The position numbers were made by a program, and so were the translations under genes. From positions 329,050-393,049 of the forward strand of contig PUQB01000065.1 in assembly GCA_003024785.1 (NCBI GenBank): a stretch of 64,000 nucleotides of DNA, given 5' to 3'. Positions 6,471 to 59,514 of this stretch are shown piece after piece. Origin of the DNA: Selaginella tamariscina (lineage: Eukaryota; Streptophyta; Lycopodiopsida; Selaginellales; Selaginellaceae). The notes under the pieces are model-generated. The model had not been told where the DNA came from and did not search any database. It saw nothing but the letters and a program-made list of their open reading frames with translations. Within the stretch, counting starts at the first letter, position 1. Each line of letters opens with the position of its first letter.

Positions 6471-6477
6471 CTAAATA

Positions 6478-7775: not shown

Positions 7776-7786
7776 TATCAGCTTTC

Positions 7787-30759: not shown

Positions 30760-31995
30760 TAGGCCAATCAAGGTACCTGTTCGGCGTCGGTCACCAAAGG
30801 AGCTCAAGATCTTACGAGCGAATGTCAAAGAGATGTTGGAGAAGGGTGTTATCCGGAAATCTCGAAGTCCTTGGGCGTGCGAACCTCACCTTGTGACGAA
30901 GCCTGATGGGAGCGTTCGATTCTGCATTGACTATCGCCCATTAAATGAGGTAACCGTCTCAGATGTGTACCCACTTCCTCATACTGCAGACCTTTTGGAT
31001 CGATTGGGGCGGAGCCGTTGGTTCACCAAGTTAGATCTCGCATCTGGATATTGGCAAGTTCCGATGGCTGACATGGACATTCCCAAGACTGCTTTTACAC
31101 CATTTGGCCTGTACGAGTTCTTGGTGATGCCTTTCGGTTTGAGCAATGCTCCAGCAACTTTCCAGCGTATGATGGATGAGGTTCTTTGCGACATGCCGGA
31201 GGTGACTGCCGATTTCATCGATGATGTTTTGATCCATTCGGATGGAACGTGGGAGGAGCATGTCGGTGATGTACGTAAGGTTTTGGATCGGCTGGGAAGT
31301 TGGTTTGAAGTTGAAGCCATCTAAGTGTGTGTTTGGATCAAAGGACACCACTTATCTGGGTTATCGCATTTCACGTGAAGGTTTGCAAGTCGATCCTGAC
31401 AAACTAGTTGCAGTTTTGAAGTTCCCTACGCCAAAGTGTGTGAATGATGTGCAACGCTTTCTTGGCAAGGTACAATATCTGGGTCGTTTTGTGGATCATC
31501 TTTCAGATCGTACTGCACCGTGTGGCGCGTTGTTGAAATCGTCAATGACTTCTTTTGTTTGGTCTAAGGATTGCAAGCAGGCATTTGCAGATCTCAAAGA
31601 GTTGTTGACGACTCCTCCAGTTTTGGCGTACCCGGATTACACCCGTCCTTTCATCTTGCGTGTAGATGCTTCTGACATCGGCCTCGGGGGCGTATTGATG
31701 CAGGAGAGTACGAGTGTTCCTGGCCAACGACATCCCATTGTACATCAGCCGTACATTGCAGCCAGCAGAGGTGAATTACTCCACGACAAAAAGGAGTGTC
31801 TAGCAGCAGTTTGGGGTTTTGAGAAGCTCCATGCCTACTTGCTGGTTCACGACGTTGTTGGAAGGCGATCATGCAGCAGTCACTTCATTGTTGAAGCGAA
31901 AGAATTTAATTGGTCATACTACTCGGTGGGCTTGAAACTTCAAATTTACAACTTTGAAGTTATTCATTGCCCAGGAAAGTTCCATGACTGATGCT
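30760..31995 (+). pseudogene. RT and RNase H, Ty3 element 2
   Basis: 30760-31324 encodes RSPWACEPHLVTKPDGSVRF, FCIDYRPLNEVTVSDVYPLP, FTKLDLASGYWQVPM and the palm box FIDDVLIHS. A frame change near 31300 leads to 31320-31991 with the thumb (TYLGYRISREGLQVDPDKL) and RNase H (LRVDASDIGLGGVLMQ). The protein ends within RNase H. Confidence 0.88.
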
Positions 31996-38450: not shown

Positions 38451-41400
38451 CTACCAACTTCCAATAAGGTTCTTTACACTAGACGAAAGAAGAATAGTCT
38501 TTGGCTTTACGTCCCGGTCTTCTCGTATGCACAGAACTACCAATTTCGCGGCTTCGTTCTGGTCAATCTTCCCACCATGGGTAATCATGTGCTCGCGAAG
38601 ATTCTTACGATAGAATTTTAATATAAAGTGCTTTTTGTTCTTGTATGACCTTTTTCCATTTGAATTACACCCTTAGTGCCTTTGAGATTTAGAAAAACTT
38701 TTACCTTGTGAAAACCATTACCAAGTGACTTGTGAATGGTTTTATAATCCAACCATTCATTATTTACTATTCTCTCCACTCTTGCTTTGGATCCTTTGCC
38801 TATAGTAAAGAAGACTCTGTACCTGCTTAAGAGATTTGACATCAACTTACGTGTCTTGTTGCTTTTTAGAGGGTCTTCAAATAAGCTTGTTTTTTCTCTT
38901 CTTTTTCCTTAACTCCATCATTTCTTGCCTAGTTATGCTTCTAACCATCATCACCCTAGTGATAAAATGAAACCTACCCTGAAGGCTAAAAAGGTAAGAG
39001 CAAATGAGCCACTTAGATTCTGCCACGTGGACTATGAGAGTGATCTTAATCTTTTAGCTTGAGTTACCTTTAATCTCTCTCTCTTAACGCCTCCTGTTAA
39101 AGGTTTTGCATAAATATATATATTAACACAACACACAAACACACACACACACCACACACGCAATTAATATGCAATTTCAAATACTTGCCATATGCTCGAG
39201 GATGAAGAAGGATGCACTGAGGCTTGTACACGTACCTTCATTCATGGTTTGTGCAAACTGACCTACAATGAAGACTCCATTACAGTGCGTGTATTCAGTG
39301 AGTTTTAATCCAAACAATGGGTATCTTGCTGCTGGAAATGCATCTGTGTGAGAGACTATATGCCCATAATAGCACACTGTATTTATATATATTATAAATA
39401 CAGTGTGCTATTATGGGCATACAGTCTCTCACATTTATATATAAATATAGTATAAGGGCTTTTGGGCGAGAGAGCTGAGAGCTTATGGGTAGCTGGGAGA
39501 GTGGAGAATGTGGAGAGACTGTCTAGCTCGGGGTGAGCTCTTGCTCTACGGTTGGGTGGTGAGTGAGGCAGCTTACTACTTTTAGGCCTATTATGAGCAT
39601 GACTGTTACATTGGTATTAGAGCCAGGTTAAGGTTGTGTGGTTGCCTTTTTGTGTCACTATGTCAGATTATGAGGGCGATGGTGGGAACTATTATGTTCC
39701 ATCTATGAAGTGGTGGGAGGATGGTTCTTCTTATGAACCACCTTATTTTGGCCAGCAGGAACTGTGTGATGAGTTCTGATTTGTTTACAAGTTGATGGAG
39801 ACTTATGATGCGGAATCAGCTGAACGTATGGCCATTCTCCACCAGAACATGGATTAGTTCAAGTAGCAACTTGATGAGTTTAAAGACCTAGTTCAAACTC
39901 AGTGGAGAAATGAGAAAAAGGGCTCCGAACTTCAATTCTTCGAGAAGAAGACGTTACCCGAGTTCCCTGCCGAGGACAAAGTGAATTCGGCCGAAGCCTT
40001 GTCTTGGCTAGAGAAGGTCGATAACTTTTGGATGTGAGACGCTTTAGCAGCAATGAAGGCAAGCTTCTGGAAGTGTCCTTGGCGTTGAAGGGACAAGCGG
40101 ATCAGTAGTGGAATCGTGTTACCACACACTCACCTAAGCCAATTACCACTTGGGCACGATTCAAAGAGGTATTTAAGGAGGAGTTTGCTACTAGCTATGA
40201 TGTGCAGCAAGCAAGGTTAACTTTGAGAAACTTTGTGCAAGGGAAGTTGTCTTTGGATGTCTACATCAATGAATTGCGAGACCTCTATGCACGAGATCCA
40301 TCGATTCCTCCAGTGATGCAAATTGATTACTTCCTTGATGATTTTAAGAATCTCAATTGAAGTGTCAATTGAGTAATCGAAAGCCTGTTGATTTTGACGA
40401 GATGGTAGCCTATGCCAGGGAGCAGGCAACGCACTTCTTAAGCAGCAAGGTGTATGTTCCTGAATCTTCCAATCAATCTTCGAAGAAGAAGCTCTCTTAT
40501 AAGTCTTATAAGAGGTCGTATTATAAGCCTTATCATTCACGGAAGGAGCATCGAGGCTCACATAGAGAGAGAGAATAAGCACTCTTCAAAACGATGGGAA
40601 GAGCAAAGGAATAAGGGATGTTACATCTATGGTGATCCAAGTCACCATCATGATTGTCCTTAATCGAGGAAAGAGAACGATCGTGGCAAGTCAATGCAAG
40701 AAGTGACAAAAGAAAAGCCAGCTGAAGCAAGCACTTCTACTAAGAAGGTGGCTATCTCGCAGATTGCTAGGGAGTTGAGTTGTGTGGCTGGTAACACCAA
40801 GATACAACAAACAAATGGACAAGTGATTCGTCTTTATGGTTTTGTGGATGACACTCACTTGAGTGTGTTGGTTGATCCAGGGAGCAGAGATGAGTTCATT
40901 TCCAAGGATTTATTGGAGAAGTTGAACATTCCCACTATGGAGGTTCTCCGTATAGCATCAAAGGAGTTGTTACGGAACAACAAACTTGGAACGCAGCTGT
41001 GAATTTTGAGTTTATAGTGGAGGGAACTCCTATTTGCGAGCAATTCTATCTTGTGGAGATGAAATGATATGATGTTATACTTGGTATGACTTGGTTGGAG
41101 AAGTTTAACCCTCAGATTGACTGGAGGACGAAAGAGGCTACTCTTTATGTTGAGGGTCAGAAGATCACTTTTCATGGTGAATCCTATACTCCACCAATAA
41201 AGTTACTTTCTGTTATTGCGATAAAGTCTGCTTGTAAGAGCATGGGAAAGAGAGCTGCAGTTGATGGGGAAAATGAGTACTTTTTGGTTCAGCTAAAAGC
41301 TGCAGACACGGGGTCACCGTTGTTGATTGGTCAACAGTCAATGTTGACTAAGGACACCCGAGATTTTGCAACTAAAGGTAGAATTCAAGGATGTGTTTCT

Positions 41401-44400
41401 CTGATGAATTGCCTAAGGGAGTCCCACATGAACAAGGTGTCCAACACGAGATTGAGTTGGAACCAATATCACGAAGTTCATATCAGTTAAGCTACTTAGA
41501 GGAGCTCGATGTGAAGAAGCAAGTTGAGGCATTACTTGCTCAAGGATTTATTCATCCTAATAAGTTACCATATGGAGCGCCGGTGTTGCTCGTTCATAAG
41601 AAGGACGGGTCAATGCAGATGTGCATTGATTATCGTGCCTTGAACAAGGTGACTGTGAAGAATAAGTTTCCTATGCCTCGAGTTGATGATATCTTTGATA
41701 AACTCACGGGAGCACAATATTTCAGCAAAATCGATTTCAGGAGCGACTATCAATGAGGGAGCAGGATGTTCCGTAGGCTTTTCGGACGAGGCATGGACAT
41801 TTTGAGTTTATTGTTATGCTATTTGGTTTAACTAATGCTCCTGCTACATTTATGAATTTAATGAATTTGATTTTTGCTGAGTATATTGATAAGTTTGTTG
41901 AAGTATTCTTAGATGATATTCTCATCTATAGCAAGACATGGGAGGAGCATGTGCAATAGTTGTGAATGGTTCTGACTGTGTTGAGAATGCATAAGCTTTA
42001 TGCAAAGAAATCTAAATGTGACTTCTTCAAGGAAGAGGTAGAATACCTTGGTCACATTGTTTCAGCACATGGTATTGCTCCTGATCCCAAGAAAGTCGAG
42101 GTTGTGACTAATTGGCCAGCTCCAAAAGATGTTCGAGAGTTGTGAGGTTTCACGAGACTTGCCAATTACTATCAAAGATTTGTGTAGAACTTTTCTCGTA
42201 TTGCACTTCCACTAACAATTTTGTTAAAGAAGGACAAGTTGTTTGTGTGATAGCCAAGGAAGCAGCAGCTTTTGAGAGATTGAAGCAAGTACTTACTTCT
42301 GCTCTTGTGTTGGTTGTCCGCTATAGATGATACACCATTCGAAGTGTACACTAATGCATGCAGGTATGCGATTGGAGCCGTGTTGATGCAAGCTGATCAT
42401 GTTATAGCTTTTGAGAGTCAGAAGTTGAATGATGTGGAGAAGCGTTATTCTACATATATGCAAGTTGTAACTAAAATGGGCATGGCTATAGTCCCATTTC
42501 CTAATAATTAGCAATTTTAGCTATTTAATTAGCATTTTCTAATATTAAAGGAATATTCTTTAGAATATATGTTTGAAAAGAGAATATTCTTTAGAATATT
42601 CTATTTTGTATTCTACCCTTTAATAAATTATAGCATTCATTGAACAAAAATTAATAACATTATAAAAGTAGAATGTATTAAATTATATAATATATTGCCT
42701 AATATAACAATTAAGGAAGAGCATAAGAGGTACATTATATAAATATTGATGTTGTTATTAAAATATTAATATTTAAATATAACATTATTAATTAAAAATT
42801 TGTAGTAGTAATAATATATATATAAAATCCTATAATAATATAGTCAATCTTCCATATCATTTTTTAAATTTATATAGTTAAGTATACAATTTGGTACTAT
42901 TATTAAAGAGTTTATAATAATTATGAATATTAAATATATGATATTTTATAATTTTGTAATTGCTTTAAGCTTCAGAAAACATACATTCCCTTGCAGTTTT
43001 GTTAATCGTGACTTTATCAACGCTTCTTGACATCCACCCATATCGAATGGATTTAACATTTATAAAACATGCTGGGTCTTTTTGATTGGGAGACCATGTT
43101 TTCTCTAGGCATCCATTATATCTTTCGCTCTCCTTCTCGTGTCGCCTTTTTTGTGGTTTGAACCATGCAACCTTAACAATACTATTTTTTGTGATTACTT
43201 CAGGTGTGTCGATAATTTGACCCATCCAAATAGGCTGATTATATGACGCATCTGGAGTAATGAGAACCATCATTAGTTTTTGAAGATCCTTGCAGCAATC
43301 AAAGTATGCTTTAGGTTTTTGGTTCCTTTGTCCAACAAAGTGTGGGGTTTGCACTTCCACATCACTACTGGCTTCTATGTCGTCTGTGCTCAGTGATGTC
43401 ATTTCAATCTCCTCTCGCCACCTTGTTTTAGGCCAGAAAGGGTGTTGCAATTCTGTACTTGTGACAGTAGGCCCTTCCAACTCTCGAACAACAGTCTCCC
43501 AATAGTTGACCACATGCTTATATAGTTCTGAGTAACCAGTTGCCTTATCAGAATTCTTTGGCATCGATTTTTGAACCCATGCCACATATTTTTTGATGCC
43601 ATCAATAATAACCTCTTGTTCCTTGAGCTGGGCACTCAATGGAATAGGGTCTGGTTGTCCTTCTGGGAGAAGTGGCTTTCCATCCTCTCCACTTTTGAAG
43701 AGCATTAAGCCCTCTTTCGGTAACCACTCCTGCTCTGATGGCCGTAACTTGTACTGCATAATAGGTATACCATCTCGTATGGAGAAAAAGAATTGTAGCG
43801 GCACAAGGTGACCAACTAAAGAATCACTCCCTTCTTTTATATACTCCTTGAGAAATTTTTTGAAGTCTGGCACCTCAGTCACAAGCAAAGCACAACTTTT
43901 TTTGGAGATGCAATTTTCAAAAAGATTCATCATATGCGGTAAGGTAAGTGCACTTGTCCTTTTTGTAGAGTTGGAGACCTTGCTGAAGAACGCATCAATA
44001 TCTTCATGAGTGTGACCAACCATAAGGAAACTGAGCGTGATTGTTTCAAACACACCTTTGGCAACAAGCATTGACAAGTATGCTAGCACATATCTAGAAA
44101 ATAAAAGTAAGTATGAGCTTGAGAAACCCTTAAGTAAAATGATTTACCTATTTTTGTTCTCGCCTGCACAATTATCCATCTGTAAAAGCAAATGACGAGG
44201 AAGCTTATTTGATGTTGAGGACACATGTACACTATTTGAGCTAGATCCCTCCACTGAACCTGAACTCTCAACAGGGCCATCTGTTTTTTGTGCAGGTTGC
44301 TGACAATGCCTCTCATATTCCCAAGTAGCCTCAAGTGCAGACGTGTTCATGAGAGCATTATGTAAAGGTTGAAGGTGTTGTTTCTTCACTTTGAGATCAC

Positions 44401-47400
44401 TGATAGGACTTGTCTGTGAGTGGGCTTCAAGGTTTCTGAAACACATGGCTAACGACCCAATAGTGAAATTGGAGTCGCTAGACCAATGTGGAAGTGAAAA
44501 GTGTCCATATGACTCACAACCGTGTCCATGTGTTAGCACACCTGTTAAAGAAATCGGAAGTTTCATGACATTTCCAAGGCACTTTGGTGTTGCAAAGAGC
44601 TTTGGAATGCTGGTCTTTGAATGATCCATCTTGTCATGGATCAAGCACAGGTACTCTGATGGGCGTGACACAGAAAGCATGCGGTGTGCATAGTACTGAG
44701 ACCGGCAAGTTTGTTGTGCAATCATGTGGGCCTCCATCTTCCTTTGAATGGTAGTGATCTCCACCAAGGTTTTTGCACAAGCCTCTGCAGCCTTCAATGA
44801 TGTACAAGTGTCACACTTAGAAAAGCTAGAGTGTTTTGCAATCTCCACATCCTTAAAATGAGTATTCCATATGTTGTTGAAGGTACCAGTGCAGATTGCT
44901 TGGAGCCCCATCAAACTGAGGCACTTGTTCACATGTTCACACAGTTTCAATTGAGTGTAGATTGAAGGTAAAACCTTGAGATTTTCCCTGACCCCTGCAT
45001 TTGTGGTTCGGCATTTGTGAGGCATCCTGTCTGCATTTGCTTCCACAAAAGCCTTGAGTATCTCTATGGCTGCCATGATGTGAGAGCGGGTTTTGACCAA
45101 GCCAGTGTTCCCATGAACTGAGGTTCGCGCTCCATCTAGCCACTCATCCCTCCGACGGTAGAACGTGGTCTTTGGGATCCCGTATATACTGTACCAAGCT
45201 TTGAAGCAGATGGCCACCTTATTAAATACCATGGATGTACTCTGATAACCTGTGTCCGAGGCCATTCCATCAATACACCCAGTTAGTGCAGCATATACAA
45301 ACTCATGCCTTTGCTTTTGGGTGAGCATACGAAAGACATGTCTACATTGGGTAATTTCATTCCGGTCTGCCATCTGACAACACTTCTTCTTGCAACAGTC
45401 AATCGTGGAAATGCTCGTAACACTTTCGGAAGATGTAGGATCCATCTTTACCCTCTTGCTGAAACTTGCAGGGGAAGATCTACAACCCATGAATCGCCTT
45501 TTTCTTACAATAGGACCAATGCAAGGAACCTCTTCAAATATGAGTTGTTCTTCCGGGTTGTTATTATTGAAATCCAACCCAGAATATGTTGAACCATCTT
45601 GCCGTCTTAATTCAGATGTTCGCCACCTCACGAGGGATCCAGGATACAATGTGCCATTAGGTGAAACCTCTGTCACAACTACACCCACGAAGTCGGACCC
45701 TAGTTTCTCTTCTGACACTGCTTCCATTGGATTTATAGCTGTGATGATGCCTCTTCCGACTTCAATCTCACGAAGAAAGAGAATCACCTCATCCATCACA
45801 GCAGGCAAGCCATCATCTGGTAAACTCGTGCTACTATTTGTTTGTGACTCTGCATATTCTGTGTCCAGCCTTGACTTCATCCAAATTCCACAATACAGGA
45901 GAACCCTCCTCAAATTCCATTCCCAGAACCTCAACATGCTTGTAAATGGTGTTCACCCATACGTACACACAAGATCCTTGGGAAATATTGTGACATGATG
46001 CATTATTATCTCGAACTTCCACAGTTCCAGTGCCAACTATCTCGTTGTTCCGAAGAAGACATACTTTATCTCCAGTATTAAACATATTGTCCTGCACATA
46101 AATAATTGTATTATTTATGATATCTGTTTATGCAATATTTTTAAGAAATCTGAATTACGGTTACTTAATAATATGCATATGCAATAATACATAATTATGT
46201 TTAGAGATAATATCTCATGTTTGATTAATACAACTGATGGGCGAATCCCTCCGACGAGGAACGGTCGGCGGGATTAATCCCGCCGCCGACTCAACCCCTT
46301 CGGAGAGAGTCGGCGGGATTAATCCCGCCTTGGACTCCCTCCGACAAGGAAGAGCCGGCGGGATTAATCCCGCCGCCTCTTCCTCCTCGGGGGAGTCCGG
46401 CGGGATTAATCCCGCCGACTCTCTCCGACGAGGAAGGGAGTCCGGCGGGATTAATCCCGCCGACTCATCCTCGCCGGAGAGAGTCGGCGGGATTAATCCC
46501 GCCGGACTCCCTTCCTCGTCGGAGGAAGAGGCGGCGGGATTAATCCCGCCGGCTCTTCCTTGTCGGAGGGAGTCCAAGGCGGGATTAATCCCGCCCACAA
46601 TTCTTACGACGGGGAATGGGTGGCGGGATTAAACCCGCACATAACTCTCTCCAAAACTATGATTTCAAAGAGATCTCGGGATAAATCCTGTCCCCAAATC
46701 TTTAAAACAGGGAAGTGGTGGCGAGATTAATCCCGCCACCCCTTCCCTGCCTCCTAAAATGGTTGGCGGGATTAATCCCGCCGACAACTCTTTCTAATAA
46801 ATTCTGGTAACTCTTCATCAGTTGAGAAGGTTATCGACGGGATTAATCCCGCCACTCTTTTTCAGTGGCGGAGAAGCATTGCCCGGGAGATGGTGGCGGG
46901 ATTAATCCCGCCACTTCTTCAAAGAGGCGAAAAAGAAATGGCCGGATTAATCCCGCCGCCCGGTTAACCTAGAATATTAAGTTAAAAGGATATTTAAACG
47001 TGATAAATCCCTAACGGAATATATTATAATCCTAATGCATTTCTAAACCCCTAAATTGTAATTTTAAGAGAGAATGTAAGAGAGTGAATCTTAATAAGTA
47101 TTTTTAAATTTGTTTATAATACTTACTTGTAAACAGCACTGAAGGCGCCGTGCTTTCCTATAAAGAATAGCACCCAATTTAATCTCGCTCCTGAGATGAT
47201 CACTATGAAGAAAAAAGAAGATCTAAAGAGTGAAAAATACAGAAATGAAGAAACCCTTGCCGGAGAAAGAACCAGATCTGAATTTGAGTGGGAAATTAAA
47301 TGCATTTTCAAATTTACATGTCAGACCGACAATACATATGTCAGAAATTCAAATTTTTTAAAAAGAACAGAAAATAAAATTTAAGATGAGTTGACACAAA

Positions 47401-49709
47401 TATCCGACACTCTGACATATATACTCTCCAGTTCCAATGAGTATTTTAAAATTGCATTTAATGTTATTCAAGTGATTCAAGCTGTTTAATATTACGAAAT
47501 TTTAGACTATATTCTACATTCTTAGTATTCAAGTATATTTATATTATATATATATATAAATATATACTTATACAATAAATAAATTGATATATTATTATGT
47601 ATCATTTAAAATATATTCATAGTCTGTTTATTATTATTATTTTCTTAATTACTCGAGTATTTAGTTTTCATTTCCTAGTATCAATGGGATATTCTTTAAT
47701 ATTTTATTAATATTTGAAGAATATTCTAATATTAAACCTGATTATCATAATTAAATTAGTCTTGTTCTTAATTATTGCAGTAATTATTCTACATTTGTAT
47801 ATATTAATGGGATTTTCTCAATTAATTTGTTATTATTTCAAGAATATTCATGTGTTAAACCTTATTATCAATATTAAATTAATACACACTATGAACATAT
47901 TTTAAATTATACATAATAATACATCATTTTATCTAATATATAGTCATATATAGTTTTAATAATATATATATTAATATCATTTCCTTAATTACTTGAGTAA
48001 TTAATCTTCTTTATATTAATGGGATATTCTTTATTATTTTCTTATTATTCCAAGAATATTCCAATATTAAACATGATTATGATAATTAATTTAGTTAATT
48101 ATTTGAGTACTTAATTTACATTTGTATATATTAATGGGATTTTCTCAATTAATTTCTTATTATTTCAAGAATATTTCAATGTTAAACCTTTTTATCAATA
48201 TTAAATTAATATATATTATTAAAACTATATATGGCTATATATTAGATAAAATCATATATTATTATGTATAATTTAAAATATGTTCCTAGTGTGTTTATTA
48301 ATTTTATTTTCTTAATTATTCGATGTTTGTTTTGCACACATATATAAACACAATCATAAATTTACACACGCATTACAAGAACTTACAAAAACACATATGC
48401 ACACACATGCACAACCCTAAACCAAACTGAAGAAATAGGTTGCTTCTTTATTGAAAACATCATGTTCAACGCATGTATGATATATGTACTCAATCTGTGT
48501 GACTGTATGTAACACATTGAATTTACATGTGTAATATTTATATTAAGCTTGTTGGGAGCAAACCCTAAACCCTAAACCCTAAACCCTAATATGTAACACA
48601 ATGAATTTACTCATGTAATATGTATGTATGTCTGTGTGTATACACGTGTGCATGTATATATGTGTACTCTGTATGTATATATGTGTACTTTCTGTCTTCT
48701 CTCATACATACACACCATGCATGATCCATGTTAATATGTACTGTCTCTCTTCTCTCAAACATACACACCATGCATGATCTATAATATGTACTCGGTCTCT
48801 CTAATATTATGTACTAATATGTATGTATGTCTGTGTGTATAATACACACCATGCATGATCCATTAATATGTACTGTCTCTCTTCTCTCATATACTATGTA
48901 TGTATATCTGTGTATAATATGTGTAAGTATATATGTGTACTAATATATGCAATGTGTACAAAAATAATTTTTCAACACTCTCTCTTCTCTCATACATACA
49001 CACCATGCATGATCCATCCTAAATCCAAAACCCTAAACCCTAAACCCTAAACCCATGTAATATGTGTGTATGTCTGTGTGTATACACGTGTGTATGTATA
49101 TATTATGTGTATTAATATGCAATGTGTATGTATGTATTGATACACATGAAACTTTAACACTCTCATGGACACACACATGTTAAATCCCTGCATGATTTAT
49201 ATTTTTGAGGTGTATGTGATACACCCACCACACGCACGCGCTAATAATATAATGAAAGAATATTCGTTTAGGGCGAATCTATATTTTATTCTTTTTAGGG
49301 TTTAAGTATATTCTCAGAAGGAATATTCTATTAGGGTTGATATATATATTTAATTCCTTTAGGGTTTAGGTATATTCTTAGGGTTTCAAGAGGCGGCGGC
49401 TGTGAAATCGGCGGCGGCGGCTGTGCACACAGGTGAGATCTGTGTGTGTGTGTGTGTATGTATGTATATATGTATAGGAGTGTGCGTATAATTTTATTTA
49501 TTAGTTTTATCTCTCGCACACACACGCACACTCCTGTGTATGTATATGTGTGTGTGGGTGTGTGTTTGTTTATCTGTATGATTTATTTGTTTCGCTCACA
49601 CACGCATACACACGATATACATATACACATATATATATATACCTATATACATATATACATACATATATTATGTGTACCAGTATCTGTAAATTTTTTTTTA
49701 TTGATCTTG

Positions 49710-49764
<55 letters not shown>

Positions 49765-49844
49765 TATATTATATATATATTATGTGTACCAGTATCTGTA
49801 AATTTTTTTTTATTGATCTATCTCTCCCACACACACGCGCACTG

Positions 49845-49893
<49 letters not shown>

Positions 49894-52800
49894 TATATAT
49901 ACAACACTAGTTTATATATATGCTTATATATTCATATGGTTATATATCTATATACACACATATATATATGTGTGTGTTTTTCTGTATAATTTTATTTATT
50001 TATTAGTTTTATCTCTCGCACACACACGCACACTCCTGTGTATGTATATGTGTGTGTGTGTGTGTTTGTTTATCTGTATGATTTTATTTGTTTCGCTCAC
50101 ACACGCATACACACAATATACATATACACATATATATACTATATACATATATACATACATACAACACTAGTTTATATATATGCTTATATATTCACAGACT
50201 CTCTCTCTTTCTCTATAGATTATATATCTATATACACACATATATATGTGTGTGTTTATCTGTATAATTTTATTTATTTATTAGTTTTATCTTTCGCACA
50301 CACACGCACACTCCTGTGTATATATATATGTGTGTGTGTGTGTTGTTTATCTGTATGATTTTATTTGTTTCGCTCACACGCATACACACGATATACATAT
50401 ACACACATATATATACCTATGTACACACATATATTAGGTGTACCAGTACTGTATAATTTATTTATTTATCTATCTCTTGCACACACACGTACACTCCTAT
50501 ACATACATACATACATACATATATATACACACACACATATATATGTGTGTTTTTATCTCGCTAAGCCCCTCGAGCGGCGGGATTAATCCCGCCGCTATAT
50601 AGTTGGGGCCATGGCGGCGGGATTAATCCCGCCGCCGAGGCCCTTCAGGCATGGGTGAGCGGCGGGATTAATCCGCCGCCGAGGCCCTCACGCAGGCTAT
50701 GGGCGGCGGGATTAATCCCGCCGCTCTACGACAAACCGAAGAGCGGCGGGATTAATCCCGCCGCCCATGGCCTGCGTGAGGGGCCTCGGCGGCGGGATTA
50801 ATCCCGCCGCTCATCCATGCCCTGCGCGGAATGCGGCGGGATTTATCTCGCCGGCAATGGCCTGTGTGAAGGTTCTAATGGGCGGGATTAATCCCGCCGG
50901 ATTCCGCGCAGGGCATTTAGAGGGAATGGGCGGCGGGATTAATCCCGCCGCCGAGGCCCCTCACGCAGCCATGGCGGCGGGATTAATCCCGCCGCCCAGG
51001 GAATTCACGCAGGACATGAACGCCGGGATTAATCCGGCCCCACGCTCATGCCCTTCGCGGAGGGCGGCGGGATTAATCCCGCCGTTCATGTCCTGCGTGA
51101 ATTCCCTGGGCGGCGGGATTAATCCCGCCCCCACCCATCCCTGTTCAAAAATGCCGCAGCCAATATATATGTGTGAGCGCATGATTTACGAGAGGGCGGC
51201 GGGATTAGCCTCCGAACCTTCATTACCCGGTGGCGAGATTAATCTCCGAACCTTCATTACCCATTGGTATGTTGAATCAATCCCGCCTAACTCTGTCTGA
51301 GACGGAGAAGGTTTACAAAATACCAATGGAGGGAACCGAGAAGGGTGGTGGGATTAATTTCACCATCCCTTACATGGTGGGCGGGATTAATCCCGCCGTG
51401 TACGCATGCCCTGCGCGGAATCGGGCGGGATTTATCCCGCCGCCATTGGCCTGCCTGAAGGGCCTAGGCGGCGGGATTAATCCCGCAAGATTTCGCACAG
51501 GGCCTGGGAGGCGGGATTCATCCCGCCGAACGCCAATGCCCTGTGCGAAATCGGGCGGGATTTATCCCGCCGCCATTGGCCTGCCTGAAGTGCCTACGGC
51601 GGAATTAATCCCGCCCGATTCCGCGCAGGGAATTGGCGTCCGGGGATTAATCCCGCCGCATAGGGATCGAGTGAAGGCCCTGGGCGGCGGGATTAATCCC
51701 GCCGAGTCTTCAATGCCTGTTGGAGAAATGAATCTCGCCACCCTTCCCTTTTTCCTCCATTGGTGAGTTGGACCAATCCCAAACGTTTCTGTCTAAGACG
51801 TAGAAGGTTTACAACATACCAATGGAGGGGACTGGGAAGGGTGGCGAGATTCATTTAACCATCCCTTACATGTGGGCGAGATTAATCCCGCCTCCTTTCT
51901 GGAGTCACTGAAGGGGTGTGAGAAATAAATCCTGCCCAGTTCTCTCTGAGACCGAGAAGGGTGGCAAGATTAATTCCGCACTCCCGTTCAAGGCCTCCAG
52001 AAAGGTGGCGAGATTAATCCCGCCCACTCTTTCAGGAGGCATTGAAGGGGTGGCGAGATTAATCCCGCCGCACCTTCCATGTGAAATATATGTGTATTAG
52101 TATATATAAGTTGCATATCTCATTTTATTTACTTTTATCATCTTATCATAATATTTCGAGTAAAAGCTAGGAATCTATGTAAAACTGTCCAGAGCTCACA
52201 TTTGTGGTGGTTCTAAAACGAAATGTTATCTTTCTTTTGCACTAACACAAATGTGAGCTTCGGACAGTTAATTACGTCTACTTCTCTCTGTGTATTATTT
52301 TTGTATATTCGGTTTATACAAGTGTGTGTGCGTTTTTATATAATTTATATTTATAGTGTATTATTTTGCAGAAGGACGATTTGATCAAACAAGGAGATCG
52401 AGTCATTAGTATGGAGTCGTCGTCAAATTCTGGGTAAGAATTAAAATAAAATCTGTATACTCGGATACTTGAACTAATCATTTTTGTATTCAGATGTGGA
52501 ATTGAAGTGACATTAAAGACAAGAGCAGGAGAAGAGATGGGCAGGGGGATTTTGGAATCAACTTGGCCATATTTTAAGATAAATGGGAAGCGCATTGGAG
52601 CAACCATGGTTGCTGTCAAATTAACCTCTGTCACATCTCATGGACAAGTAAAACAATGGAAAGTTGATTCGCTAGTCAAGCACCCGAAAGCAGGCTGCGA
52701 ACCCAGATTGGACGATGCTCGACAGATATGCCTTGTTCCATCCAATGTCACGTTCTCGGATCCAGAGGTCGTCAGTTACAACATTAATCTCGGGTGGTTT

Positions 52801-55800
52801 TGTCGACTTGTGGATAATGATGTTCACGTGTTCACTAATGATGTTGACCTTGGAGTTCTTCTTCAACTCAACGAAAGCCCATCTATGGAGGGGATCCATC
52901 TGGATGTCTACTTCGAAGATCTTCAGACTCATCGAGTAGGTGTATTGTCAGGAGATATTGTTTCACAATACAGAAAATCAGCAAGTGGAGCAATCTTCCC
53001 TCTTGACATTGAAGAAGAACACAGCGACATCATAAGGGAGATTGAGAAGGTGGCTCGGTCTCAGGTTCTCTACAGATCACGTTCAATTTGCTTAGGAAGC
53101 TTCGGGAGCTGGAGGAGTGTGCCGAGAACACTAGAACAGCTGCAGTCGGGGATCACACATGTTGATTCGGATCGCAAAAGAAAATCATCAATCGTTTTGT
53201 CAGCTGCACCTGTGGCATCTCATGCTGCAATAAGTCACAAGGAAATGATGTTGGATGATAAGATTTATCCTTGTAGGGTTAAATATTGCAGCGTCAACCC
53301 AAACTTCAATTACAGGCCACTCAACCAGGAACGTGTAGCTGAGCTCATGGAGAAGATGAAGGACGACAATTCTTATACCGTTCCACATAATGCTGTTTTG
53401 TGTCCATACTATGAAAGAAGGAAGGGTGCTGACAAAGTCTGGATCACAACACCAGAACAACTCATGAAGATTCAGACGGAGAATAAAAGATCTATCAAGT
53501 ACTACATCATTAGTGGCCAGCACACAATAACGGCAGCCCAACGACTTCTCGATGAACACAACAAAGGAACGATGGCAACAAAACTTTCCGAGCATACCCG
53601 TGAGAAGCTGACAAAAAGATCGGCGTTTTTAGCTAAGCCGAATCTCACAATCGAGCAGTACCATAAGTTATCGGCGGAATGGGACGCTGCCGACACCAAC
53701 CACTACAACAGCAAAATATGGGAGAAGTTTAAACACACGCGAGCCGTGTGGGAATCTCTTCAGCGACCACAAAGAGCTACCGCAGGAATACACAATCTGC
53801 GGAATACCGGGTAAGCAAATTGTTTGGGCGGGATTTATCTCGCCGGTATATTAATCTGTCTTTTTCCTCAGAGAGTTGAAGAAATTGCAGCAGTTGATTT
53901 TGCCCAGGTGGGCGGGAAGGAAACATCATTTCTGATGATGTTGATTTCTTGCCCCGAAGATAGGATCTTTGCCAAATGGTTGGGGATTATGGAATCCTTT
54001 TCAAAAGGAACACTGAAGAAGAAGCAGACAAGTGAAGGGAGCCCTCAGAAAAGTCTGCAAAGAAACCCAGTAAGACGCCGAAGGCTAAGTCTGTTCAATC
54101 TACAAAGGATGTAGACAACGATTTCAAGCTCACATGGTTGAAGCCTTTAAATGGAACAACGATGGAGGAGATGGAAGTCTTGGCTGATTTGGTGATCGAT
54201 GGCAAACTACAAATTAATAACAGCAGCCCAACCTCTCCTTTTCATCTCAAGGCAATGGAGTTGAAGACGGTCAGGCATTTCAAGGAGTGGTTGGAATACA
54301 CTGCCACAAACTGGGTTGGACCTCGACTTCAACATATGAAGAGTTAGCAAATATTTGCATGTGACGAACGATGATATGCTTGTCGAATGGGTGAACCAAT
54401 CGGAAGATCTAGGCAAGAATCTATTGCACGCCAACGCCAAAAAGGAGAACATTGGGATGACGCCTTCTCTTATGGCAGTCCTTCAGCAGCGGAGAACCGA
54501 ATTGAACCTTATAAAGGAGGATGCTACGAATCACGACAAGCCCTACAGATGTTTGTTGTTAGATTCGGAGACTTTATGGGGTAACATCACTGCTTGTAGG
54601 AAACCGTTTCAATTGTTCGTGATGGATCGGCGGGTGTCAAAAAATCTTTCGACAGATAGGGCACTAGAGGATCTGGTGGAGAAACTTAGCCGTGCAAGCA
54701 TATACATAGAAGGTATTTATTATTGAATTCATGCTTGCGCTCTTCACTGATACCTACTTTTTCAGGTATTTATTTCTTGATTCTTGCTCATGTCACCGAT
54801 ACTTTTGCCTTCGCCTTCGCCAAGAAGAATAGACATCGTTGGACAGGATTTTATATGAACGATGCTAATCCCAAGTGCATTGATACTGTTGTTCACTTGG
54901 TTGTTAGGAATGCGCCAAACAATTTCAAGCTTCCAAATGACTGGCCAGGCATCTGTTTGCACTCCAACGGCCCTGAACCTCCATCCGATACACCGATAGG
55001 TATGAGTGACGTATTCGGCAATGTACGTTATCCAAACATTACAAGTCAAGCGGCACGGAGCATCGTCAACTTGATCAGGGGTCCTCACAGTGATGCGTGG
55101 GTTTTTGACTACTGCACTAGGGGGTCCGTCTTGAAGGAGTGTTACCTTCGGCATACATGTGTGTTTGCCGTTGAGAAGGATAAGACCATGGTTGAGGACC
55201 TGAACAAGTGGATAGATTGGGTCTCAACTGAGTACCCCAACGATTCCATAAAGGCGTATTTGAGAAAGTTCCCTCCAGATAAGTGCGATAGCTCTGAAGG
55301 TGAATCTGGTTCAATCTCGGAGTCTGAGAACGAACATCAATCAGATATTAGACCGGAAGTTATCTCGAGGAGTACAGAACATTCGCACACTCCAGGACCC
55401 ATGGAAACATCAATAGAAGATGCAGAAGATCTTGAACCATCTCACAAGCGGCTTAGACCTTCTTCGCCTCATTCAGAAGGTAATAGCGAAGAAGAATTGA
55501 TAATGAATTGATAGAGTGATGAATAGTTGTAAATGAGTGTAACATAAGGCATTTTTGTATATTTCTTTTATATTTGTACAGAAAATAAATTCTCAAGGAT
55601 TAATGAAGCTTTTAGTTCAAACATGGGTCACACATTAACAAGGTAAATAATATACCTTGATAATTTTAAGGTCAGCTAATTATCATTTTGCAGATGTAAT
55701 GAAATAATTGAGAACATGGATTTTCAGCATTGCCATGAGGTAAGAGAGGGGTTTGGCGACAATTTTTGTGCCACATGTCAGAATGACAGAGTTCATGCAG

Positions 55801-58800
55801 GAAATGGATAATAATGCAGCTCAAAACATCGTTACCATGGGGGCCACTTCATCATCATTTTTATTGGCTTCAGTTCCGAAATCAATTTCTTCAGCGCATG
55901 CAATATCTGAATCTTGTAAGGATGATGTACAATTAAATGATGAAGGGATAGGCAACGAAATAGTGGCAACGGATAAATGTGAAAGGGAGCAAACAAGTGA
56001 TTTGCAAAGTATTCAAGAGGCAACGCTATCTCACGTTACTCATGGCCATATTGTGTTGTTGGATGTCAATGGTGTTCTGCTTCATCGACAAAGGCCCGAG
56101 GATAGAAAAACAGAAATCAAACAAGGAGATTTCATTCCTTGTCATGGTAAATTTCGATATGATATTATTTTTCGTCCAGGGTTGGATCGTCTCTTTCAAA
56201 AGCTTAAGGAGATGGGTGCGCTTGTGGGGATTTGGTCATGCATGCAGATTCATAACTTAACACCGCTGTTGAGTTTACTTAAGAAACATTGTAGTGTTGC
56301 AGAAGAGGTGATTCGTAAAGATTGGATTTTTGACCAGCGAATGTGTATAAACCTCTCGAATTTCACAATATAAGAAAGGAAAGCAAGCCATACTTCTTCA
56401 AGAATGAAAGAATAATTGGGACTCATGGGGAGATCAGTCGCTTAAGGATAACGAAGAATGCACATATCTTAGTAGTAGACGACTCTCCTCAGAAGGCTAT
56501 GCTCAACCAAAACATTGCTTGTATTCATCCAATCACTTTCGATCCATATTCTGATATCGATATCATGGATGAGCTAGTGAACTACTTGGATACGTGCCTC
56601 AGAAAGAAGAATCTCGAAAATTTTTGTGAGCAGTATCCACCGTATCATACATTTCCTGAAGCTTTTCTTTCTCGTGATATTGAATTTTATAAAATGAAGG
56701 ATAGCAACCGGGCGCTTTATAATATTATTCTTAAGGAACGTCAGTTTTTAGATGAGCCTTTATGCAGACCTTCTCTTATCACATCTTATGTATTAACAAG
56801 GATGGCAACTCCCAATTGCATTCGTGAGAGTGTTAAGTGGTGGCAACAACATCAAGATATTGACCAAAATGATTTGATTAATCCGGAGAGTGATGATTTA
56901 GACAAAATGAAAAGATTTCTTTGTATGATAGAAAGAAAGTATTTATAAAAAAATTAACATGTTGATAAGAAAATGATTTCATTTGTAATTATGTTTGATA
57001 GTATTTCTTCATTATTGTAAACTATTTTTAGAATAATATGAATATTCTAAGATATTTTAGGAATATTCCTTACTAAGTAAGGTTATTGAAGGATTAATTA
57101 ATTAATTAATTAATATTTAAGGCTTAATTACATATTAATTAAATGATTAATTAATAATTAAAACTTAAGTATTAATTAGTAATTTATTTTATATTCCCAT
57201 TTTCACGTATCATGCCCACTTTAGTTACAACGTGCATATATGACCAAGAGTTGCTTGCTATTGTGCATGTTGTTCGTATTTGGAGGCATTACTTGCATAA
57301 TGGGTTAGACTTTAAGGTCTTTACCGATCATAAACCTCTACGACATTTCTTAACTCAACAAGAGTTAAATGGAAAACATGCTCATTGGTCAATTCGTCTA
57401 CATGAGTTTGGTGGACAAATGTCAATCCTCTATAAGGAGGGGAAGGAGAACGTAGTTGCGGATGCTTTGTCAAGAGTAAGACAACTAAATGTTGTGGGGA
57501 GAGTGAGAGTTTGCTAGTTGATATGATTGGGGAAGCTTAATTAAAGGATGATTGATGTATAACAACGCTTGAACAATCTGGTGGAACTGTATTCGAAAGT
57601 TGATGGTTTATTACTTTATAAGAACAAACTTGTTGTTCCAAAGAAGGCAAAATTGATCACAACCATTATGTATGAGATGCATGATGTCATTTGTTGGACA
57701 TTTCGGGGAAAATAAGACATATGAATTGGTGAAACGTCGCTTATATTGGAAGAACATGAAAGCAGATGTGTTGAATCATGTTAAAACATGTCAAGATTTT
57801 TAAATAATTAAGCCTGAGCGAGTTGCTACTCCAGGTTTATTGAAGCCTTTTGGAGATTCCGCACCAAAGGTGGGATAGCATCTCAATGGATTTCATCACT
57901 CATATGCCACACACGGTGAGGCAGAACGAGCAAATTTGGGTGATTTATTGATCGCTTGACCAAGTATGCTAAGTTCATTCTGTTTAAGGGGAATGTAACC
58001 AGCAAGGAGTTAGTTGTGGTCTATTTGACTCAAGTATTTTTGGAGCATGGAATGCCATTGAACATCATTAGCGATCGTGACTCCAAATTCACTAGTTCTT
58101 TTTGGGTATCATTCTGTTGAGCTTTATCAACCGGATTGAGTTTTTCTAGTAGAGATCACCCTTAGATTGATGGGCAAACTGAGTGGGTGAATCAAATTGT
58201 GAAGGATATGTTACGAGCAAGTGTTCCGGAGAAGCTAGGGCAGTGGGATAAGGTTTTGCCATTAGCAGAGTTTGCTTACAACAACAGTATGCATAGTGGC
58301 TTGGGTTACAGTCCATATTATGCATATCATGGCAGGAATCCAAGAACTCCAGCTGATGTGGGTATTTGGTGGAGTAAGCTTGGTACTGATCAAACAAGCT
58401 TGTAGCCTTGTTGGAGAACTAGAAGAAATCCTACTAATTTGTAGGAAGAACTTACTTAAATGGATAGAGTACGCAAGTATGCTTGATGCAAAACGCTCTT
58501 ATCGGTAGTTCAAGGTTGGAGATAAGGTATATCTACGAATGGTATTTCCTTCATCTCTTAAGTGGGATCTATAACTTAGCTCAAAGCCAGCAAGTCAAAC
58601 AAGCTTGCACCTCGTTATATCAGTCCATTTGAGGTTATTGCGCAGGTTAATGAAGTAGAATATAAGTTGCACCTACCTACAGGAGTGCAACTTCATCAAG
58701 TCTTTCATGTGAGTCAGTTGAAGACTGCTCTTGTACATGACGACGTGCATGTGAATTTAGAGATGGATGATGGACACAAGGGTGAAACCCAAGATGATGA

Positions 58801-59514
58801 TAGTCCAGTCCCACCTCCTCCAAAGCGATGTTGCAGAACTTGAATGTGCACAGTACGTCCTTGAGGACAAGGACTTCAATAAGGGGGAGGAATGTGAGAG
58901 ACTGTATGCCCATAATAGCACACTGTATTTATAATATATAATAAATATAGTATAAGGGCTTTGGGAGGGGCAGTGAGAGAGCTGAGAGCTTACTAGGAGC
59001 TAGGAGCGTGGAGAATTGCGGGGAGACTGTCTAGCTCGGGGGTGAGCTCTTGCTCTATGGTTGGGTGGTGAGTGAGGCAGCTTACTACTTTTAGGCCTGC
59101 TATGGGTAGGACTGTTACAATCTGGCAAAGCCTTGTTATACAGGCTTCGTCGTTAATCATTCTTAACATAATTTATTTTAATTATGTATTGTCTAGATTT
59201 AATATTTAAATTAGTCAAAGAAAATAGTTGTATAAATCAATTTTTGCTCACCTGTATATAGAGTTATACCATGAAAGAATGTACCTCTTCGTTTCCCATT
59301 GAATGCAACTATTTGCTATCTGGAGAAACTTCAATGCTCTCCAAACTCCTATTGAATAGATAATTGGCAAAACTTTATCACGTGCACACGCGCACACGCA
59401 CACTACTGAGCATACATACGACCATTTGGACTTTACCATTACCGTATCGTAAAGAGCATATACCTTCCTTCAAGCAGTTGCTATGACTTTTAGAACCGTC
59501 GATGTGAATCTTGC
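38451..59514 (-). CDS. Unrecognised host gene split by a 19.8-kb retroelement
   Basis: Minus-strand exons in matching phase: 59514-59464 ([16 protein letters not shown]), 59372-59285 ([19 protein letters not shown]...), then an exon that begins at 59144, is cut after 59120 by Ty3 element 3, and resumes at 39346, ending at 39236 ([20 protein letters not shown], then [13 protein letters not shown]). Further exon-like parts are 38820-38702 ([20 protein letters not shown]) and a last exon of about 38605-38451 ([40 protein letters not shown], stop). Joining the middle exon across the ATCTG target duplication restores a continuous frame. I cannot name the product. It is disrupted in this haplotype unless the whole 19.8 kb is spliced out. 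Confidence 0.5.
39347..39433. repeat. 87-bp near-perfect palindrome at an LTR end
   Basis: TGTGAGAGACTATATGCCC...CACTGTATTTATA is followed after a few bases by its reverse complement TATAAATACAGTG...GGGCATACAGTCTCTCACA. Only one mismatch is seen (ACTATATG versus CATACAGT). The 3' LTR has the outer copy only. Confidence 0.9.
39347..39610 (+). repeat. 5' LTR of Ty3 element 3
   Basis: Longer than the 3' LTR (264 versus 227 bp) because its first 40 bases are repeated in inverted form. Ends match the 3' LTR. Confidence 0.9.
39660..41060 (+). pseudogene. Gag and protease of Ty3 element 3
   Basis: After MSDYEGDGG the Gag reads on with stops. [20 protein letters not shown] marks the capsid start. 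A knuckle near 40620 is [13 protein letters not shown], with the second Cys changed to Tyr. At 40873 the protease active site reads [12 protein letters not shown], where D-T/S-G is expected. Confidence 0.75.
41440..42457 (+). pseudogene. RT and first half of RNase H, Ty3 element 3
   Basis: [31 protein letters not shown], then (new frame) [14 protein letters not shown] sequence and [14 protein letters not shown]. The RNase H start is [20 protein letters not shown]. The frame ends at EKRYSTY, where the DNA element begins; the domain continues with [19 protein letters not shown] at 57242. Confidence 0.85.
42458..42484 (+). repeat. Left terminal inverted repeat
   Basis: ATGCAAGTTGTAACTAAA then ATGGGCATG. 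It differs from the right TIR at positions 6 and 19. It is followed by GCTATAGTCCCATTT, so an AATGGG...CCCATT subterminal inversion is present. Confidence 0.92.
42485..42964. other. Left subterminal AT-rich region
   Basis: No gene. It contains two closely spaced GGAATATTC/GAATATTC motifs (42550-42600). Similar GAATATTC motifs lie near the right end (about 57033-57070) and in the centre, so they could be accessory transposase sites; that is inference only. Confidence 0.4.
42965..46085 (-). CDS. Putative DDE/D transposase of the DUF7869 type
   Basis: From ATG at 46085 ([18 protein letters not shown]), with a frame change near 45870, an exon ending at 44148, a 54-bp GT-AG intron (44094-44147) and an exon from 44093 to the stop at 42965; about 1,020 residues. 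The N-terminus holds two related modules ([39 protein letters not shown]). [18 protein letters not shown] suggests metal binding. [12 protein letters not shown] (about 44640), [11 protein letters not shown] (44183-44151, right before the intron) and [16 protein letters not shown] (about 44026-43993) give the acidic residues of an RNase H-like DDE/D fold and match the conserved core of DUF7869 proteins. The C-terminus ends with a small beta-rich module (IVKVAWFKP). It reads towards the left TIR; array 1 lies 180 bp upstream of the start. One base change is needed for a continuous N-terminus. Confidence 0.78.
46267..46957. repeat. Palindrome array 1: about 14 copies of GGCGGGATTAATCCCGCC
   Basis: Perfect copies start at 46267, 46312, 46357, 46399, 46444, 46486, 46533, 46578, 46765 and 46895; variants at 46622, 46720, 46836 and 46940. 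The first eight are spaced 42-47 bp, about four helical turns. Spacers are rich in TCCGACRAGGAAG and its complement. The array is a GC island in AT-rich DNA and lies just upstream of the transposase gene. Both strands stay open as GGINPA and AGLIPP peptides, because the 18-bp unit and most spacings are multiples of three; I do not regard these as genes. Confidence 0.97.
46423..46524. repeat. 44-bp inverted repeat within array 1
   Basis: 46423-46466 (CTCCGACGAGGAAGGGAGTC...) is the exact reverse complement of 46481-46524, with a 14-base loop. Each arm contains a full 18-bp palindrome, so the structure is a palindrome of palindromes able to form a long cruciform. Confidence 0.93.
46970..50570. 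other. AT-rich centre of the DNA element
   Basis: No gene is supported. It contains roughly 325-bp direct repeats at 47640-48260 (ATTAATGGGATTTTCTCAAT appears twice, with GAATATTC nearby); several TCTCTCTTCTCTCATACATACACACCATGCATGATC copies in shortened form at 48690-49020; and three to four repeats of a TGTGTATGTATATG / CGCACACACACGCACACTCC block at 49440-50540. Long (AC)n tracts lie at about 49714-49760 and 49850-49890. Confidence 0.7.
48559..48589. repeat. Plant-type telomere repeat tract
   Basis: About four CCCTAAA units. A second tract of similar length is at 49028-49054. Both are internal to the DNA element and between the two palindrome arrays. Confidence 0.9.
50576..52069. repeat. 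Palindrome array 2: about 25 copies of GGCGGGATTAATCCCGCC
   Basis: Perfect copies start at 50576, 50616, 50705, 50745, 50791, 50881, 50932, 50976, 51066, 51112, 51380 and 51686. Variants lie at 50661, 50835, 51021, 51424, 51470, 51510, 51554, 51598, 51640, 51875, 51963, 52007 and 52052, among others. Regular spacing is 40-51 bp. Spacers carry ATGCCCTGCGCGGAAT or its complement in alternating orientation (50817-50832 against 50901-50916). The array decays towards the ParB-like gene, with G-to-A changes (GGCGAGATT). It ends about 340 bp upstream of that gene's ATG. Long open frames across it are repeat artefacts. Confidence 0.97.
52411..55511 (+). CDS. ParB/sulfiredoxin-fold-like protein with methylase-like C-terminus
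   Basis: Exons: 52411-52433; 52494-53810; 53874 to 54712 (at least two frame changes, near 53960-54060 and 54350); 54766-55511. Introns are 53-63 bp and GT-AG. The N-terminal module (residues about 11-75, [20 protein letters not shown]) resembles that of the neighbouring transposase. Residues about 267-362 look like a ParB N-terminal domain: [20 protein letters not shown] ... [20 protein letters not shown], where ParB proteins have a G-E/H-x-R-x-x-A motif. A Lys-rich linker ([11 protein letters not shown]) follows. The C-terminal exon has [18 protein letters not shown]...FAVEKDK, resembling motif I and the following E-K/R-D of N4/N6 DNA methylases, with [10 protein letters not shown] where DPPY is expected. 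ParB-methylase fusions are known in phages and bacteria. Catalysis is doubtful. DNA binding is the likely role. Confidence 0.65.
53827..53844 (+). repeat. Stray palindrome copy in an intron
   Basis: GGCGGGATTTATCTCGCC, two changes from the consensus, inside the 63-bp intron (53811-53873) of the ParB-like gene. It is the only copy seen outside the two arrays. Confidence 0.9.
55623..56948 (+). CDS. FCP1/HAD phosphatase-like protein, frameshifted
   Basis: Candidate exons: 55623-55642 (or earlier), 55694-55739, 55801 to 56948, with GT-AG introns of 51 and 61 bp that keep phase ([20 protein letters not shown]). An FCP1-homology domain follows: [11 protein letters not shown] (56050-56085), [31 protein letters not shown], then, after a frame change near 56340, [23 protein letters not shown] and [23 protein letters not shown]1/SCP enzymes are HAD phosphatases with DxDx(T/V). 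Here the second Asp is Asn (DVNGV), as in some plant homologues, so activity may be weak or lost. It could be captured host cargo. The stop lies 289 bp from the right TIR. Confidence 0.7.
57211..57237 (-). repeat. Right terminal inverted repeat
   Basis: Reads CATGCCCACTTTAGTTACAA then CGTGCAT on the plus strand, the inverse of the left TIR with two mismatches. It is followed by ATAT and then GACCAAGAG, the resumed RNase H codons. Confidence 0.92.
57242..58860 (+). pseudogene. Second half of RNase H and integrase, Ty3 element 3
   Basis: [40 protein letters not shown] and [12 protein letters not shown] complete RNase H. The integrase follows with frame changes: [14 protein letters not shown] near 57730, the core ([10 protein letters not shown] near 57890), [20 protein letters not shown] at 58230-58290, and a C-terminal part ([20 protein letters not shown] near 58620-58680). 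Not intact. Confidence 0.82.
58893..59119 (+). repeat. 3' LTR of Ty3 element 3
   Basis: TGTGAGAGACTGTATGCCC to GGACTGTTACA, followed by the ATCTG duplication. Confidence 0.92.

Follow-up and report, generated by a model that had tools for sequence, protein, structure and literature searches.

Transposons that carry arrays of target sites for their own anti-silencing proteins are known mainly from the VANDAL elements of Arabidopsis. VANC21 binds a short motif that is densely arrayed, often as tandem repeats, in the noncoding DNA of VANDAL21, VANC causes loss of methylation, and related copies have gained or lost repeats of the motif (PMC5735166; for the last point also the related PMC10398659). 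The locus described here, found in a 64,000-nt stretch of Selaginella tamariscina DNA (the window), resembles VANDAL21 in that a short motif is densely arrayed in noncoding DNA beside the genes of a DNA transposon, and in that the number of repeats differs from copy to copy. It differs in the motif itself, which is an 18-bp palindrome, GGCGGGATTAATCCCGCC, whereas that of VANDAL21 is described as 9 bp long (YAGTATTAY) and in one orientation; neither "palindrom" nor "dimer" occurs in the main text of the VANDAL21 paper (PMC5735166).

In gene content, the locus recalls the giant, 21.5 kb element Sola1-1_Ec32 of Ectocarpus, which encodes, in opposite orientation to its transposase, a ParB-like plus methyltransferase protein of 1104 aa (PMC12477816). 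Here, too, a giant transposon carries its transposase and a ParB-like gene on opposite strands, but a profile test did not confirm a methyltransferase half in the present protein; "palindrom" is absent from the main text of the Ectocarpus paper (PMC12477816). Sola2 elements are described as having AT-rich 4-bp target duplications and short terminal inverted repeats (TIRs) (PMC3627910). Our element shares both of these features with the Sola superfamily, while its transposase is established only as DUF7869 (PF25273). Palindromic sites next to genes are also a feature of the bacterial ParB/parS system and of VirB, an anti-silencer of the ParB family, and by this partial analogy the ParB-like protein could counter silencing. 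Unlike bacterial ParB, it matches the family only weakly in sequence, and the GERR box, which has a CTP-binding role in the ParB family, is absent, the aligned place reading GQHT. Among the titles and abstract openings listed in searches of open literature, none describes such a palindrome architecture.

A bounded DNA transposon and its genes

The divergent gene pair and both palindrome arrays are part of one bounded DNA transposon of 14,780 bp (42458..57237), which goes beyond the reading given in the preliminary description. It has 27-bp TIRs at its left end (ATGCAAGTTGTAACTAAAATGGGCATG, 42458..42484, plus strand) and right end (ATGCACGTTGTAACTAAAGTGGGCATG, 57211..57237, minus strand), is flanked by the target duplication ATAT (42454-42457 and 57238-57241), and sits within a retrotransposon pol gene, of the Ty3/gypsy type as judged by eye. 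Equal 4-bp flanks were found in four of seven copies with both ends (ATAT in the window; ATAA, ATGT and TTAT in the others), for which the chance expectation is 0.0053 per copy. An 8-bp target duplication, CATATATG, was considered and dropped, because the other copies have 4-bp duplications beside ATG/CAT ends; it is also disfavoured by the pol flanks, which by eye share one frame when one ATAT is kept. With the PF25273 domain, the TIRs and the target-site duplication all present, the element is a TIR DNA transposon with a DUF7869 transposase.

The transposase gene (42965..46085, minus strand) comprises two ORFs, 42965-44089 and 44144-45937, separated by an intron placed by eye, and these match DUF7869 with 89.4 and 48 bits against a cut-off of 26 (E 3e-25 and 1.5e-12). 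The listed ORF starts at 45937, and the most upstream ATG, located by eye at about 46085, is in another frame; the stretch from there on would be joined to the same gene. A literature search for DUF7869 found no paper, and the predicted structure of a DUF7869 relative was too poor for use (mean pLDDT 44).

The ParB-like accessory gene (52411..55511, plus strand), with splice sites placed by eye, has exon 1 with its ATG at 52411, exon 2 at 52494-53810, exon 3 from 53874, and a C-terminal ORF at 54723-55511. Its reading frames are broken in the window copy. The exon is under purifying selection (dN/dS 0.24 for exon 2 between the window and copy L043), and of 6,524 candidate matches in the genome, the 97 that scored best include 91 without an internal stop. 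A home-made ParB_N profile gave 8.4 bits, a weak score that nevertheless exceeds all 2,000 shuffles (maximum 6.3), while a Pfam search at E up to 10 matched neither ParB nor methyltransferase. An N6_N4 methyltransferase profile drawn from 5 prokaryote genomes was negative on the C-terminal ORF, which is part of the protein and was outranked by 557 sequences, mostly shuffles. By eye, a motif-I-like stretch can be seen in this ORF. A search with the read-through protein at E 0.01 matched no protein, exon 2 had no relatives in viral contigs or phage records, and PHROGs, NCBIfam, PADLOC and PDB sequences gave no relevant match; the structure predicted for the exon has a mean pLDDT of 31. Lastly, NIF/FCP1-like phosphatase-like ORFs with the motif LLDVNGVL lie at 55753..56948 on the plus strand, one at 55753-56373 (PF03031, E 4.9e-07) and one at 56343-56948 without a Pfam match.

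Palindrome arrays and their change among copies

At up to 3 mismatches, the window holds 39 sites, 22 perfect and 17 imperfect, as against none in 100 dinucleotide-preserving shuffles, which agrees with the at least 22 perfect and about 17 imperfect palindromes of the preliminary description. Its placement of the sites upstream of both genes also holds: array 1 (46267..46957; 14 sites, 10 of them perfect) lies upstream of the DUF7869 gene and array 2 (50576..52069; 24 sites, 12 of them perfect) upstream of the ParB-like gene, with an AT-rich, microsatellite-rich middle between them (46958..50575). A single site with 2 mismatches, GGCGGGATTTATCTCGCC (53827..53844), is located within the ParB-like gene, in the intron that follows exon 2, and is found again in copies L042 and L044 (2 mismatches) and L043 (3 mismatches). 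Outside the transposon, the window contains no site at up to 5 mismatches. TRF reported the arrays as tandem, and most neighbouring sites are 40-51 bp apart, as had been described, although some gaps are longer. One-arm changes had been placed mainly at the array edge; indeed, of the four occurrences of the one-arm variant GGCGAGATTAATCCCGCC in the window, three mark the edge of array 2 that faces the ParB-like gene. Three such one-arm edge sites are present again in L042, L043 and L044.

Within the window, the palindromes of arrays 1 and 2 have mean identities of 0.93 and 0.86, compared with 0.63 and 0.60 for the spacers and 0.56 and 0.55 for shuffled spacers, the sites having been selected by consensus similarity. 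Between two subfamilies of copies, A and B (L044 was put in A and L043 in B by hand), palindrome columns differ by 0.037 and spacers by 0.235 in array 1, and by 0.059 and 0.155 in array 2, a 2.6-6 fold difference in a comparison that is biased by the picking of reference sites for consensus match and by misaligned units, which raise the spacer rate. Within the older subfamily, B, the gap in array 1 is smaller (sites 0.032, spacers 0.054), as though copies decayed without constraint once resident. The ratios of site to spacer change in array 2 are about equal (0.36 within A, 0.38 for A versus B, 0.43 within B), so this contrast in decay is seen in array 1 only. Of 49 copy pairs, 4 showed more difference in palindromes than in spacers, and these were all within subfamily B. 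The number of units varies as well: among four near-identical copies it ranges over 14-18 in array 1 and over 28-30 in array 2.

Among 455 sites, positions 7, 8, 11 and 12 were changed 13 times in total and the two centre positions 63 times, an architecture in which two 8-bp half-sites flank a looser 2-bp centre. A double change that keeps the dyad occurs at 44 places genome-wide (one variant counted), about twice the number (roughly 21) predicted from the counts of the two single-arm variants (801 and 723); this modest enrichment is partly explicable by symmetric C-to-T decay and is weak as proof of the dyad. The earlier suggestion of selection for binding by a dimeric protein is thus borne out in part: palindromes change less than spacers and the half-sites make a dimer plausible, but dyad-keeping change is only modestly enriched.

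Distribution in the genome

The 300.7-Mb genome contains 27,128 exact palindromes and 4,096 exact (zero-mismatch) element ends. The latter correspond to about 2,000 element copies, or some 13 perfect palindromes per inferred copy. A genome-wide search for clusters beside these genes had been proposed, and it was run on a part: in contig-1 stretches around the first palindrome places listed, and hence chosen round palindromes, 100 of the 101 perfect palindromes have intact or relic DUF7869 or ParB/MT sequence no more than 2.5 kb away. The palindrome therefore does not resemble a free-standing satellite, and abundance apart from these genes, named beforehand as the refuting case, was not seen in the sampled stretches. 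The arrays belong to a mobile element, with thousands of sites. In the contig-1 stretches and the window, none of 1,511 alternative palindromes made of the same half-site letters occurs. Elsewhere, the exact palindrome was found at one place in viral contigs and in 49 prokaryote stretches, each with at most 2 exact copies and at most 4 sites at up to 4 mismatches. Among 100 perfect ends listed of the 4,096, there are 25 neighbouring plus/minus pairs with opposite end types; the shortest spans 10.2 kb and the median is 14.75 kb, 18 of the 25 fall within 10.1-15.0 kb, and none is below 10 kb.

Possible roles of the arrays

We tentatively favour a cis-regulatory role, in which the arrays would be binding platforms for a dimeric activator or anti-silencer that the element itself probably encodes, a proposal modelled on the VANC proteins that act for VANDAL elements. 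A dimeric DNA-binding protein would bind each palindrome as two GGCGGGAT half-sites, and the best candidate for such an element-encoded binder would be the conserved ParB-like protein. Dense occupation beside both promoters may then keep the transposase and accessory genes transcribed despite host silencing.

The DUF7869 transposase could instead bind the arrays itself, to assemble or regulate transposition, the arrays being needed in cis for mobility. The TnpA sites of Spm are comparable internal transposase-binding sites, and the 25 end pairs include no short deletion derivatives, as if internal DNA were required. However, the arrays are not subterminal, with about 3.8 kb and 5.2 kb separating them from the ends, the listed ends are zero-mismatch only, and a young burst could also lack short derivatives; we regard this reading as unlikely. 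We are similarly sceptical that the element captured binding sites of a host transcription factor and amplified them as a promoter-proximal enhancer. The position of the palindromes upstream of both genes would fit, and the fixed inner AT of the half-sites, together with the looser centre, would suit any dimeric factor, but there was no sign that the host uses the exact word, the neighbourhood of element genes accounting for all but one palindrome in a sample that was itself chosen round palindrome places.

That the arrays are a passive minisatellite, grown by slippage or unequal exchange around a functionless hitch-hiking or cruciform-prone unit, seems improbable to us. The variable unit number of near-identical copies and the TRF result are in line with it, as is the array 1 palindrome change in subfamily B, more than half as fast as that of the spacers. 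Against it, window palindromes are far more alike than spacers, even allowing for the choice of sites by consensus similarity, spacers diverge more than palindromes between subfamilies, and the other palindromes of the same letters do not occur in the stretches searched. We consider it slightly less probable still that the arrays are a modification platform, marked as self (N6A or N4C) by a ParB-methyltransferase in the way proposed for algal transposons: the protein encoded opposite the Sola1-1 transposase in Ectocarpus (PMC12477816) and the motif-I-like stretch seen by eye would speak for it, while the N6_N4 methyltransferase profile was negative and Pfam gave no match.

A bolder version of the anti-silencing proposal would be a eukaryotic parS-like system, in which a ParB-family protein of the transposon loads on the dense arrays and spreads, keeping both promoters open in the face of silencing and letting about 2,000 copies fill roughly a tenth of the genome; we think this distinctly doubtful. 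If an activator or anti-silencer does act through these arrays, it would do so in a different element from the VANDALs, one whose site is much more regular, whose accessory protein looks bacterial and whose copy number is very high. The palindrome would then offer one simple DNA probe for finding the binder, and would suggest a concrete target that the ParB-type proteins of algal transposons, so far unexplained, might have.

The palindrome arrays and their transposon

The preliminary description had reported two arrays of an 18-bp palindrome, GGCGGGATTAATCCCGCC, and these are real: scanning the window gave 22 exact sites and 17 with one to three mismatches, against none in 100 shuffles. Array 1 (46267-46957) lies upstream of the DUF7869 transposase gene and array 2 (50576-52069) upstream of the ParB-like gene, and the spacing of 40-51 bp claimed for the sites holds for most adjacent ones. 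At up to six mismatches, 48 non-overlapping sites lie within the transposon, and the window outside it holds none at up to five.

This element (42458-57237; 14,780 bp), with inverted ends ATGCA[A/C]GTTGTAACTAAA[A/G]TGGGCATG, has its DUF7869 transposase gene on the minus strand; the plus strand carries the ParB-like gene together with ORFs resembling NIF phosphatases. It splits the pol gene of a retrotransposon, by eye of Ty3/gypsy type, its ends being found between a left half with a reverse-transcriptase match (41391-41756) of 23.7 bits, under its cut-off of 29.6, and a right half with an RNase H match (57212-57517) of 57.4 bits, over the cut-off. The host retrotransposon is degenerate (about 40600-42457 and 57238-58900), and keeping one ATAT brings the flanks into a single frame across the site. 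Identical 4-bp flanks occur in four of seven two-ended copies (chance 0.0053 each); in the contig-1 stretches C1_3001, C1_793001 and C1_2051001 they would agree if the right end were one base shorter, differ by one mismatch and do not agree, respectively. The transposase has 10 public relatives at E 0.001, the top one with 48% identity over 56%.

The NIF/FCP1-like ORFs (55753-56948) are part of the element; LLDVNGVL, found in the window and in every contig-1 match showing the motif, has Asn where Asp is usual. Telomere-like CCCTAAA/AAACCCT repeats lie in the element's middle region (48560-48589, 49018-49054); such CCCTAAA repeats are a hint of plant or algal DNA. Elsewhere in the window we noted by eye a matrixin-like metalloprotease ORF with a tail of proline-rich repeats (14172-14873, minus strand) and further degenerate gypsy-type pol sequences (6819-9422, 30500-31991, about 59930-61400).

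Distribution of the palindrome

Across the genome (300.7 Mb, 1,391 contigs) there are 27,128 exact palindromes and 4,096 element ends at up to two mismatches, with none for either control (reversed, for the palindrome). Provided each copy keeps both ends, this corresponds to about 2,000 copies and, at a median spacing of 14.75 kb, to a rough estimate of 30 Mb, one tenth of the genome. The best 97 of 6,524 first-look candidates for ParB-like exon 2 were scored; they show 90-100% identity and 91 lack an internal stop, so many copies, judged on these 97, are young. At C1:900001-940000, two adjacent copies share an identical right flank, CATTTATGCTTG, which suggests a segmental duplication.

The preliminary description had raised the question of whether palindrome clusters always neighbour DUF7869 or ParB-like genes. 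This association stands for 20 contig-1 stretches (up to 2.08 Mb) rather than for the whole genome, the stretches having been chosen around palindromes, not genes, among the matches listed, and one of them (C1_312001) containing 2,500 N. DUF7869 or ParB/MT sequence (the accessory gene including its putative methyltransferase half) is no more than 1.5 kb away from 88 of their 101 perfect palindromes, 2.5 kb from 100 and 5 kb from all; in C1_2051001, the match nearest to the palindrome at 20485 lies at a distance of 3.05 kb. Not every copy is complete: a DUF7869 match is missing from C1_122001 and a ParB match from C1_172001.

The exact palindrome also occurs in 49 prokaryote stretches, at most twice in each (at up to four mismatches, one site in 42, two in six and four in one), and at one place in viral contigs. 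Nine of the 49 belong to one Prevotellaceae MAG (L058, L067, L071, L072, L078, L080, L082, L084, L095) and contain no arrays; in seven the palindrome is 75 bases or fewer from one end of its stretch, as might be expected of a repeat located at contig ends. In locus L031, a relic of a diverged ParB-like gene (5781-6626; 39-52% identity) has degenerate GGCAGGATAAATCC-type sites upstream, spaced by roughly 35-45 bp or more.

Constraint on palindromes and accessory protein

Within the window, mean identity among palindromes is 0.926 in array 1 and 0.855 in array 2, and among spacers, in the better orientation, 0.634 and 0.604 (shuffled spacers, 0.555 and 0.545). We compared site and spacer columns among 11 copies, some usable for one array only and with L045 and L046 left out. 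Site/spacer differences for array 1 were 0.003/0.057 within subfamily A, 0.037/0.235 between A and B, and 0.032/0.054 within B, which suggests a palindrome constant in the mobile lineage and decaying once inserted. Array 2 (0.029/0.082, 0.059/0.155 and 0.051/0.119) showed no such contrast in its column differences. Palindromes differed less than spacers in 45 of 49 copy pairs, the four exceptions all within B. The column comparison is biased by reference sites chosen for consensus match, possible unit misalignment and subfamilies assigned by hand.

Among 455 sites at up to five mismatches (23 loci and the window), positions 7, 8, 11 and 12 total 13 changes against 63 at the two centre positions, and this suggests two GGCGGGAT half-sites around a looser centre. 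Double changes kept the dyad in 12 of 19 cases at pair 4/15, 6 of 7 at 5/14, 5 of 9 at 3/16, 1 of 6 at 1/18 and 0 of 4 at 2/17; those giving A:T and T:A could reflect symmetric C-to-T decay. In all, 44 places carry GGCCGGATTAATCCGGCC, often several per locus, where the single-arm counts of 801 and 723 predict about 21.

For ParB-like exon 2, dN/dS is 0.24 between the window and L043 (45 synonymous and 43 nonsynonymous changes; one in-frame stop in L043), 0.29 between L042 and L043, and 0.28 between the window and L042 on 8 changes only. It is 0.46-0.95 with L044, which shifts frame near its end, and 0.14-1.18 in five partial blocks from contig-1 copies. Family searches of the accessory protein for ParB and methyltransferase were negative. 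With a ParB_N profile (18 ORF entries from five prokaryote genomes, some loci overlapping) it ranks over 2,000 shuffles, aligned on a 16-residue stretch; with a methyltransferase profile it did not rank over shuffles.

A putative role for the arrays

The arrays have CpG observed/expected ratios of 1.08 and 1.01, against 0.76 for the ParB-like gene and 0.39 for the DUF7869 gene (42965-45937), where TG/CA excess is 1.42/1.38. This contrast would fit methylation of the DUF7869 gene but not of the arrays, and could alternatively stem from fixed CpG-bearing palindromes and base composition. At up to five mismatches, array 1 comprises 15, 14, 18 and 16 units and array 2 comprises 29, 28, 30 and 30 in the window, L042, L045 and L046, respectively, a changing unit number like that of the VANC targets (PMC5735166).

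Sites beside both promoters and in an intron, the relative constancy of the word and the varying unit number point to a putative protein-bound platform that would serve expression. Since nearly every exact copy of the palindrome in our sample accompanies the element, we consider an element protein a likelier binder than a host factor. By analogy with VANC, the bound arrays would act against silencing.
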